46,881 bases of DNA from Candidatus Gastranaerophilales bacterium. Its GTDB lineage: Bacteria; Cyanobacteriota; Vampirovibrionia; Gastranaerophilales; Gastranaerophilaceae. The notes beneath the pieces are model-generated. The model did not search any database. It was not told the origin of the DNA and was given only the letters and a program-made list of their open reading frames with translations. The position numbers and the translations under genes were made by a program. The stretch lies in assembly GCA_944324315.1 (NCBI GenBank), contig CALUVW010000017.1:1-46881 (forward strand). The letters are read 5' to 3'. Positions 24,655 through 32,691 of this stretch are shown here, one piece after another; position 1 is the stretch's first letter; every line of letters begins with the position of its first letter.

Positions 24655-25638
24655 TTAATAATTCATCTCCCAGCCGTCATGGATAATTAATTCTAAACAG
24701 GCGCCCTTAAGAAGTTCAGACATAGGACTAGATAAACACTCATCTTTTAAGTTTCTGAGTCGTTCTTGTTCGGTCATAATCCAAGTTTGGTTTGCTGGAA
24801 GTTGCTGTTTACGATAATAGTAATACCAGGAATTATAATCCGTAAATGGTAACACTCGACCATCAGACATCAGCATAAGACCAAATATATCCCGCCCAAC
24901 AATATTTGGTTTCTTTTGACCATTTACGTCTATATAGATATAACCACCAAGCATATAAAATATTATACTACCGTCAGGAAGTGTACCTGATACGAGATAA
25001 TTATTATATGCAGACAAACCCAACATAGATAATAAAGAAATAAAAGGTACAGGCAGATTAGGGTTACTTTCCAGACCTTGTATAGATACATTATAATCAA
25101 ATAATGAACTATTCATATTAAGAGTTGTTTCAACATTAGATAGCTTAAAAGTATTAACTACTCGGGTTAAATTATCTGAATAAGCAGCGAATAGTTGAAC
25201 ACCCAAATCCTTGTTTTCTCTAGCAGTTAAATAATCAAGAAAACCTGCACAAGTCATATCTGTACAGCCTTGACTGGTCATAATTTGGCGAAATCCCTCA
25301 TTCAAGGTTGCGTATGTTTTCTTTATCTGTGTAACCAATACTTTCTTCTGGTAATTAGCAATTAATGAAGGCATTGTCAAAGCAGCTACTACACCTATGA
25401 CTCCAAGAGTGATTAATACCTCTGCCAAAGTAAATGCTACCCGTTGTTTAAGTGAAAGGTGAAGAGTGAAGGAGGAAACGGCATTTCTTCCTTCTCCTAT
25501 GGGAGAGGGGTGGGGTGGGTATTGATTAATACCCATCCTCCTATCCTTCCCTAATAAGGGAAGGAAGGTGTTTACGTTACAGACTTCGCATCTATGCCTC
25601 TTTGCTTCTTTGCATCTAATTACCAGATCCTGAAACAA
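24655..25638 (-). CDS. Type IV pilin-like protein 1 with repeat-derived leader
   Basis: Prepilin peptidase site VA|FTLAEVLITLGVIGVVAALT: mature protein starts at the Phe codon at 25434, Glu at +5, one N-terminal helix. The mature ~259 aa has a cysteine pair CTDMTC and the segment DVNGQKKPNIVGRDIFG also seen in pilin 2. The leader in this frame is abnormal: about 68 codons of translated repeats from a TTG at 25638, and the frame is open back through the poly-G tract to a TGA at 25732. The likely original start (25754) is in another frame at G10. An ATG at 25536, with GGAAGG 8 nt upstream, offers a shorter alternative start. Confidence 0.8.
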   Translation of the reverse strand: MFQDLVIRCKEAKRHRCEVCNVNTFLPLLGKDRRMGINQYPPHPSPIGEGRNAVSSFTLHLSLKQRVAFTLAEVLITLGVIGVVAALTMPSLIANYQKKVLVTQIKKTYATLNEGFRQIMTSQGCTDMTCAGFLDYLTARENKDLGVQLFAAYSDNLTRVVNTFKLSNVETTLNMNSSLFDYNVSIQGLESNPNLPVPFISLLSMLGLSAYNNYLVSGTLPDGSIIFYMLGGYIYIDVNGQKKPNIVGRDIFGLMLMSDGRVLPFTDYNSWYYYYRKQQLPANQTWIMTEQERLRNLKDECLSSPMSELLKGACLELIIHDGWEMNY

Positions 25639-25697: not shown

Positions 25698-25754
25698 CTA
25701 AAAGCTCGGAATCGCCCCCCCCCCGAGGCTTTCAGGCATAATAAATCTCTTCAT
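25698..25754 (-). CDS. Short leader ORF of pilin 1 (G10 state)
   Basis: ATG at 25754 with AAGGAA 6 nt upstream and a good promoter (25790-25818). At ten G it encodes MKRFIMPESLGGGAIPSF and stops. With eight or eleven G the same start would continue in frame into pilin 1. It is therefore best viewed as the true 5' end of the pilin gene in an 'off' state, or as a consequence of a homopolymer miscall. Confidence 0.55.
   Translation of the reverse strand: MKRFIMPESLGGGAIPSF
25715..25724 (-). repeat. Poly-G (G10) tract in pilin-1 leader
   Basis: Ten consecutive G on the coding strand, in CTC-(G)10-CGATTCCGAGC. Homopolymeric G/C runs of this length are classic slipped-strand sites. CTCGG and CCGAG flank it and could pair. 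Confidence 0.9.
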
Positions 25755-30989: not shown

Positions 30990-32111
30990 TTATCTTAAAG
31001 ATTCCCAGTAACCTTTTGCTTCATCATCAGGATTTTTATCTATTAAAGCATAATAGGCACACCCTAAACCATTACCGCGTTGTGTTGCATTTATAGAGCA
31101 AGGATTACCAAGTTGCATAGCAGTGGGACTTTGTGCGGAGGATTCATACTCATCACCCGGAAATAATTGTTCTAACTCTTCTTCTGAATAATAGCCTGTA
31201 GCACGTTTTGGATTTAATCTGTCTTTTTTATCAATATCAAAGAAAAAGATATCATATCCCAGAATATTAGGTCCTTTAGTACCGTTTACATCAATTGTTA
31301 AGTTGATTTCAGCGGCATTAACATAGATATCAAAACACATGCCGTTTGCTAAGGCTTTACTGGGTTTAACCGTACCTCTATCAATAAATGGATTATCTGT
31401 TGTTTTGCTATAATTTCTTACATTACCTGTATAAGTACATGTGCCTGCAACTTTTAATTTTGAAAACAAACTATCTCTAATAATTTTTGCATCAGGATAA
31501 TAAACAGAACCATCGGGCCGTTCTTCACTAATAGCAAATGAACTGCGCAGCGCTCCGCCTTGTTCTTCTGCAACAGTGATAACAGCCTGACTTAAAATTG
31601 AATATGCAGCTTTAAACGCAGTTTCAAGTTGTTTATTACGGGTATTATTAATTAACACAGGCATTGTCATTGCGGCAACTACACCAATAATACCAAGGGT
31701 AATGAGAACTTCTGCCAAAGTAAAAGCGGCTTTCGGTTTTAGTGAAGGGTGAAACGTGAAGAGTGAAGAGAGTTTATTTTTTAGTCGATAAGACGTTAGG
31801 AGATAAGTGAGTTTCGAATTAAAATTGTCATTATGAGGCTGCGTAGCACTCATAAGATTACATGACAAATGCTGACATGAATTGTCTAAAATATCAACAT
31901 GCGTAGCATCTGCGCAATCACAATATCTCAAATGTGATGGGTGGAGCGGCACGCTCCCTACGTGCGTAGCCCCTTCAATGATTAGGGAGGGGGCAGGGGG
32001 GAACGTAGCCGTTCCATACAAAATACTTAAATTGTTTATCTTTTTTACGCTAAAGACTTCGCGTCTATGCCTCTTTGCTTCTTTGCATCTAATTACTAGA
32101 TCCCGAAACAA
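30990..32111 (-). CDS. Type IV pilin-like protein 2 with repeat-derived leader
   Basis: Prepilin site KAA|FTLAEVLITLGIIGVV: mature protein starts at 31724, Glu at +5, ~244 aa, with the shared IDVNGTKGPNILGYDIFF segment and several cysteines (CTYTG, CFDIY, CSINA, CAYY). The leader in this frame is far too long for a prepilin (about 129 codons from a TTG at 32111) and consists of translated repeats (palindromic repeat D, a CTACGTGCGTAG-type repeat, a CTTATGAG/CTCATAAG repeat), yet no stop interrupts it. The frame is open back past the poly-G tract to a TGA. The good ATG at 32266 is in another frame at G10, exactly as in pilin 1. Confidence 0.8.
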   Translation of the reverse strand: MFRDLVIRCKEAKRHRREVFSVKKINNLSILYGTATFPPAPSLIIEGATHVGSVPLHPSHLRYCDCADATHVDILDNSCQHLSCNLMSATQPHNDNFNSKLTYLLTSYRLKNKLSSLFTFHPSLKPKAAFTLAEVLITLGIIGVVAAMTMPVLINNTRNKQLETAFKAAYSILSQAVITVAEEQGGALRSSFAISEERPDGSVYYPDAKIIRDSLFSKLKVAGTCTYTGNVRNYSKTTDNPFIDRGTVKPSKALANGMCFDIYVNAAEINLTIDVNGTKGPNILGYDIFFFDIDKKDRLNPKRATGYYSEEELEQLFPGDEYESSAQSPTAMQLGNPCSINATQRGNGLGCAYYALIDKNPDDEAKGYWESLR

Positions 32112-32124
32112 GTTCGGGATGACA
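32098..32124 (+). repeat. Palindromic dispersed repeat, copy D
   Basis: AGATCCCGAAACAAGTTCGG then GATGACA. Arms TCCCGAA/TTCGGGA differ from copy C at paired positions, so the hairpin is kept by compensatory changes. Confidence 0.85.
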
Positions 32125-32173
32125 GTGTTTAAACTTGCTTGACTTCTTGACCTCCTGGCGTCATGACCTCTTG

Positions 32174-32266
32174 TTAGCTCGGAATCGCCCCCCCCCCGAG
32201 GGTTTCAGGCATAGTAATTTCTAAACGAGGTTGTAATTGCTGCTCATCCAATCTTAATCTTTTCAT
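32174..32266 (-). CDS. Short leader ORF of pilin 2 (G10 state)
   Basis: ATG at 32266 with GAGGAG 8 nt upstream and TATAAT (32295-32290) just beyond. At ten G it encodes 30 residues, MKRLRLDEQQLQPRLEIT then MPETLGGGAIPS, and stops. Eight or eleven G would join it to pilin 2 in frame. Same arrangement as the pilin-1 leader. Confidence 0.55.
   Translation of the reverse strand: MKRLRLDEQQLQPRLEITMPETLGGGAIPS
32188..32197 (-). repeat. Poly-G (G10) tract in pilin-2 leader
   Basis: Ten G on the coding strand inside CTC-(G)10-CGATTCCGAGC, identical in length and context to the tract at 25715-25724. Confidence 0.9.
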
Positions 32267-32289
32267 AAATCAAACTCCTCTTTTTATAT

Positions 32290-32295: not shown

Positions 32296-32313
32296 CATAT
32301 TTAGTATAACAAA

Positions 32314-32691
32314 TTACGCTAAAATTTTCAAGAGTGCCGAACCAAATAAAAGAACTCCTATAACAATCGCAACAACTGAGGCAAACATTACAGCACCGGC
32401 GGAAATATCTTTTGCCATGCCTACAAGTTTTGAATACCTGTTATGAAACACCGCATCCAGGGAAAATTCTATCGCAGAATTTAACATTTCGGTTACTATT
32501 ACAAAAGCGATTGTTAAAAGCAATATACACATTTTTTCAATACTGAAATCGAGAACAAAAGCCAATGCCAGAACTATCATTGCTATACAAAAATGAACTC
32601 TTATATTAATTTCAGATTTTAAGACCAGACGCATTCCTTTTCTTGCATTTTTGAATGTATTTGAAAATCCCTGTTGTTTAAACTTTGTCAT
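32314..32691 (-). CDS. dgkA: Undecaprenol/diacylglycerol kinase (DgkA family)
   Basis: 125 aa from the ATG at 32691 (GGAAAG 8 nt upstream; a TTG two codons earlier is also in frame). Three membrane helices, and the family motif EMLNSAIEFSLD near residues 64-75. In Gram-positive relatives this small kinase phosphorylates undecaprenol to recycle the lipid carrier; in proteobacteria diacylglycerol. The start lies inside the end of ybeY, and the order pgpH-ybeY-dgkA matches the conserved firmicute cluster. Confidence 0.93.
   Translation of the reverse strand: MTKFKQQGFSNTFKNARKGMRLVLKSEINIRVHFCIAMIVLALAFVLDFSIEKMCILLLTIAFVIVTEMLNSAIEFSLDAVFHNRYSKLVGMAKDISAGAVMFASVVAIVIGVLLFGSALLKILA

Follow-up and report, generated by a model that had tools for sequence, protein, structure and literature searches.

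A bank of about 90 pilin genes in a gut Gastranaerophilales bacterium looks like a set of on/off surface genes that are off by default

The window, the whole analysed stretch of 46,881 nucleotides, comes from the genome of a Candidatus Gastranaerophilales bacterium, a gut bacterium and non-photosynthesising relative of the cyanobacteria. On its minus strand it carries two pilin genes in which a homopolymer lies close to the start codon (Table 1). In pilin 2, the Shine-Dalgarno (SD) sequence and the ATG are followed by codons leading into a run of ten G residues and then by CGATTCCGAGC, and a TAA soon closes the frame as sequenced. Read with a tract of eight or eleven, the sequence stays open beyond the run and past the prepilin motif, with the F of FTLAEV at 31724, as far as a stop codon at 30992-30990. 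Re-reading the sequence confirmed the arrangement described in the original prediction, with its SD, its ATG at 32266, its G10 run, its stop in the present frame and its open frame at eight or eleven; the length given there, about 180 codons, is right if counted from the ATG and too long if counted from the run, since run to FTLAE spans 154. Palindromic repeats, such as gtcatcccgaacttgtttcgggatct (read as VIPNLFRDL), occur in the leader of pilin 2 and in those of other tract-bearing pilins and keep the frame, as if repeats accumulated in a segment that the protein later loses by cleavage.

Table 1. Features of the two tract-bearing pilin loci in the window.
Feature	Position	Strand	Basis
Promoter-like site, TTGAAA-17-TATACT, TG before second hexamer	32303..32331	-	consensus match only
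Shine-Dalgarno AGGAG	32275..32279	-	sequence
Pilin 2 ATG start; 69 nt 5' of run, constant phase to run	32264..32266	-	sequence
Pilin 2 (G)10 tract, putative switch; OFF as sequenced (10), in frame with 11 or 8	32188..32197	-	sequence
TAA ending present (OFF) frame, 30 aa	32174..32176	-	sequence
Long in-frame leader, 154 codons, partly palindromic repeats, up to prepilin motif	31725..32186	-	open frame; palindromes by inspection
Pilin 2, KAAFTLAEVLITLGIIGVV methylation motif and body	30990..31733	-	PF07963 E=8.9e-5
Pilin 1 ATG, 30 nt before own run	25752..25754	-	sequence
Pilin 1 (G)10 tract, offset same as pilin 2	25715..25724	-	sequence
Pilin 1, motif and body	24655..25440	-	pilin search

Pilin 1 is built like pilin 2, and the claim that the two share both tract length and one-base offset holds. 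Such runs are rare by chance: nine-G matches number four in the window, which correspond to the two runs of ten, against 0.02 expected. The pilins are type IV prepilins, with the methylation motif, a hydrophobic helix and a PF07963 match (E=8.9e-5 for pilin 2), and the genome encodes a prepilin peptidase (PF01478 match at G000:C20, E=7.4e-10).

A search of the window's genome (G000, 1.88 Mb) for the element upstream of pilins, as the original prediction had proposed, gave 14-15 exact copies. These are always in frame with the upstream ATG where an ATG is present, and an open pilin frame follows them except in one degenerate copy and in copies cut by contig ends. The layout that had been noticed is therefore real, but its scale was underestimated, since 89 pilin genes carry a tract. 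A pilin search returned 123 matches in the genome, which holds roughly 115 runs of at least nine G (estimated from 234 matches that overlap one another); tract analysis covered about 120 pilin loci, and the tract figures refer to these pilin-bearing stretches. A run of G (63 genes) or C (26 genes) lies upstream in 89 of the roughly 120 pilins, and it is exactly 10 nt long in 78 of the 89 (87%). Elements far from start codons would have counted against the original prediction; the runs lie mostly 23-34 nt 3' of an SD-led ATG, otherwise up to 87 nt. Tract-free pilins with ordinary short leaders are also present.

Several features bear on how these runs are read. The pilin frame is open from run to motif in 87 of the 89 tract pilins, a figure obtained without prior selection of open frames. 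Twelve genes have less than 60 nt between run and motif and lack a usable internal start, so that their translation must cross the run. The runs are pure G or C and occur in every codon phase, which indicates that the DNA run rather than a peptide is conserved, and runs of eight or more A or T are nearly absent from the same leaders. Copies with 9 or 11 nt leave the in-frame length unchanged, and two of the 9-nt runs appear on inspection to be edge substitutions that keep the frame. Of 78 tract pilins, 47 are preceded by a relaxed promoter-like match, compared with 6.5% in shuffled sequences.

The tracts are strongly biased in frame. Among the 10-nt tracts of this genome, 74 of 78 are one base short of the pilin frame, G and C alike. 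When only SD-led ATGs are counted, with start codons picked by SD score, none of 78 pilins in this genome is in frame. Against an expectation of one third in frame this gives P=2e-14, a value that ignores shared ancestry; the paralogues are kin, and P values of this kind overstate their independence. Two loci are exceptions of a sort. A G11 tract at a contig end (L014) is in frame over its readable length, and in a G10 pilin at C9:19522 (L091) the run is preceded by two ATGs that overlap, with an offset of 4 nt; the outer, upstream one, which has poor SD spacing, would give an in-frame pilin at ten.

A ready explanation for an identical offset at almost every locus of a single assembly is a systematic homopolymer miscall, which the original prediction had itself raised: true runs of 11 would be under-called and all of the pilins would be ON. 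Seven non-pilin genes of the same genome, encoding glycosyltransferase-like and other proteins, serve as controls. Four of them (L120, L337, L339, L340) have a 10-nt run that leaves the frame intact, which argues that the assembly has no systematic loss of bases, and the other three lack one base (L115, L116, L336); since non-pilin runs of 10 nt are thus found both in and out of frame, ten is the usual length in this genome whatever the frame. The difference in frame state between pilins and non-pilins is significant in this small sample (Fisher P=1.7e-5). Lengths of 9, 11 and 12 nt were called as well, and the layout recurs in independent assemblies of relatives, SPAdes-style NODE contigs included, with norms of 9, 10 and 13. 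Illumina sequencing, moreover, is reportedly accurate on poly-G tracts of such size (PMC6321876). A miscall is therefore an unlikely cause of the offset, and a bank of uniformly ON pilins hidden by under-calling is highly improbable. The glycosyltransferase-like genes among these controls (L116, L120, L337 and L340, so labelled by sequence inspection), with C or G runs of 10 nt that are in frame in some and not in others, are likely to be further phase-variable surface genes.

The exact G8-CGATTCC element was found, among genus relatives, in the window's genome only, and for this reason the comparison was shifted to runs near pilins generally; viral contigs, which were also scanned for it, gave no match. 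Many genomes of the family are rich in runs of exactly ten G, for example G013 with 91 and G029 and G053 with 73 each, against 0-3 in many others. Of 255 tract pilins in 11 genomes, sampled from selected stretches of which some were picked for carrying G10 runs, 20 are in frame, 196 need +1 and 39 need +2 or -1. The usual length is 10 and the in-frame length 11 in G053, G012, G013, G029, G088, G114 and G150; in G053, G150, G114 and G088 length 10 is favoured because stretches were picked by G10 runs, while the loci of G029, G012 and, for the most part, G013 were picked mainly by pilin search. In G098, G072 and G035, where stretches were picked by runs of eight or more, the numbers are different: G098 has mostly 9 and is in frame at 10, G072 has mostly 13 and is in frame at 12, with the offset reversed, and G035 has 9, 10 and 11 and is in frame at 10, with the offset mixed. 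We accordingly dropped a universal "+1" rule, to which G072 is opposite and G035 mixed. By the criteria used, no link to pilins was seen for the sampled G10 runs of G045, and in G106 the sampled runs fall within other genes.

Tract length also differs between close copies. Near-identical copies within G072 vary in length, and length differs in 6 of 11 interspecies syntenic pairs, for example at a locus that has C10 in G000 and C9 in G029 and whose flanks are 86-90% identical. Among named genomes, a scan returned four MAG loci with the layout, Melainabacteria and Gastranaerophilales among them, the other matches being unrelated. A NODE contig of CALUYO (Candidatus Gastranaerophilales) and two loci of CATKZI (Candidatus Melainabacteria) have C10 and are off, and a similar locus in CAMTMK has C11 and is on. 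Poly-C versions, the near-absence of in-frame copies and set-lengths specific to genera all go beyond what had been noticed at the outset.

We suggest that the G10 run is probably a slipped-strand phase-variation tract, one of many in a large pilin repertoire that is OFF at the usual length of the genome. When replication adds or drops one G (or C), the SD-led ATG would be joined to the long pilin frame or split from it. At the usual 10 nt nearly all pilins would be OFF, and they would be ON at 11 or 8; expression in a given cell would then be confined to the few pilins with a tract shifted to an in-frame length, and the population would thereby gain a combinatorial pilus repertoire. The layout, the open pilin frame, the tract lengths, the OFF state and the length differences between species and between paralogues are read from the sequence itself. 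A switch in the DNA fits pure G and C runs that are used alike, the near-absence of A/T runs, the tolerance of any codon phase, a length that changes under a constant frame requirement, and the use of such runs by glycosyltransferase-like genes. As in contingency genes, the repeat is intragenic and sets the frame, its length differs between species and paralogues, and the products, pilins and glycosyltransferase-like proteins, belong to the surface. We infer that slippage occurs within populations, that the proteins are expressed, and that the benefit would lie, for instance, in evasion of phages or host immunity or in altered adhesion. The earlier proposal of shared control or combinatorial pilin expression is upheld in outline, by a layout that is genome- and family-wide and close to starts.

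What is unusual about such a switch is how strongly it is biased to off. Simple phase variation does not need a constant +1 offset in most genera, OFF-by-minus-one being equally workable, and the 87% of tracts at one length in G000 is a tighter distribution than that of a large Campylobacter set, in which 52% of tracts are 9G and 30% 10G and the share of ON genes is near neutral drift (PMC6321876). In G000-like genomes the lengths 9 and 11, which flank 10, account for a few percent each; if those shares held within a population, by extrapolation some 3-4 of 90 pilins would be on in each cell. Switching may be slow, because the genome encodes MutS.

It is these same regularities that would be expected if a fixed 10-nt run caused one-base slippage of RNA polymerase or of the ribosome at a constant frequency, yielding low levels of pilin from unchanged DNA; each pilus might then be a mix of many of the roughly 90 pilins. 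The +1 offset of the 74 tracts in G000, with G and C both, and of seven more genomes is what such recoding would predict, but G072, with 13 nt and an in-frame length of 12, shows the reverse offset and G035 a mixture, and a conserved direction of shift, expected of programmed ribosomal frameshifting, is thus absent. Non-pilin genes that are already in frame also have 10-nt runs, so that length is not tied to offset. The runs are of G or C, while surveys of bacterial transcriptional slippage treat A and T runs (PMC1088944), which the leaders nearly lack. We consider recoding unlikely, and the mixed pilus that would follow from it equally so. Slippage as known from IS elements and dnaX does resemble the present case in having a slippery run followed by an open frame that is one base out of register, and differs from it in that the offset direction here varies, G and C are used alike, and in-frame copies exist.

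That almost all copies are OFF, that their repeated leaders could recombine, and that tract-free pilins with short leaders exist would also suit a silent archive, in which OFF copies store pilin sequence for recombination into a few expressed genes. Each copy, however, has an SD and an ATG of its own, in many cases a promoter-like site as well, and a frame that is open through the leader, and the pilin bodies are diverse, all of which makes an archive quite improbable.

Repeat-driven frame switching is well established, and the preferred reading, phase variation by slipped strands, has several counterparts. In Neisseria, pilus and Opa genes switch frame through repeats near the N-terminal leader, much as the tract pilins would; there, a couple of pilC or about a dozen opa genes are involved, compared with about 90 pilin genes here, and the major pilin varies mainly by recombination. 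Campylobacter is likewise AT-rich and has intragenic poly-G/C tracts of about 9-11 nt that frame surface genes, glycan genes included. Where a C. jejuni genome has 18-39 poly-G/C contingency genes of many kinds (PMC6321876), here one gene family dominates, one tract length prevails and the pilins are almost all OFF. For a mostly-off family, the nearest functional parallel is vlhA of Mycoplasma gallisepticum, a large family of surface proteins, few of them expressed, in which repeat number is the switch; its promoter GAA repeats, active at 12 GAA (PMC6258824), act on transcription, while mononucleotide runs at the coding start would act on frame.

A single-cell genome of the Gastranaerophilales lists pilA, pilB, pilC, pilT and pilD, and its mentions of repeats and pilins do not concern switching (PMC5877343). 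A literature search, with most subscription papers outside its reach, found no paper that links phase variation to Gastranaerophilales or the term phase variable to Melainabacteria. The mechanism is thus known, and its scale, the OFF bias and the lineage appear to be new. If true, these gut bacteria would have an unusually large one-family phase-variable set, in a lineage without phase variation in the literature searched. Read counts at the roughly 90 tracts in existing gut metagenomes could show which pilins are ON, in which hosts, and how fast they switch. Gene callers would also be affected, and pilins of this kind would be truncated, missed or started at false internal codons.

Some further observations concern the wider setting of the runs. 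In G000, C2:93681-109846 holds two pairs of pilin loci, the members of each pair near-identical and about 11 kb apart, both copies with 10-nt tracts, which likely represent a recent duplication. G/C runs also occur in sugar-nucleotide, aminotransferase-like and other non-pilin genes of G150 (L146) and G106 (L149-L150), in all three frame states. In G098, G045, G035 and G114 many contigs stop within about 100 nt of a tract, and repeated leaders or mixtures of lengths among the reads may be the cause.
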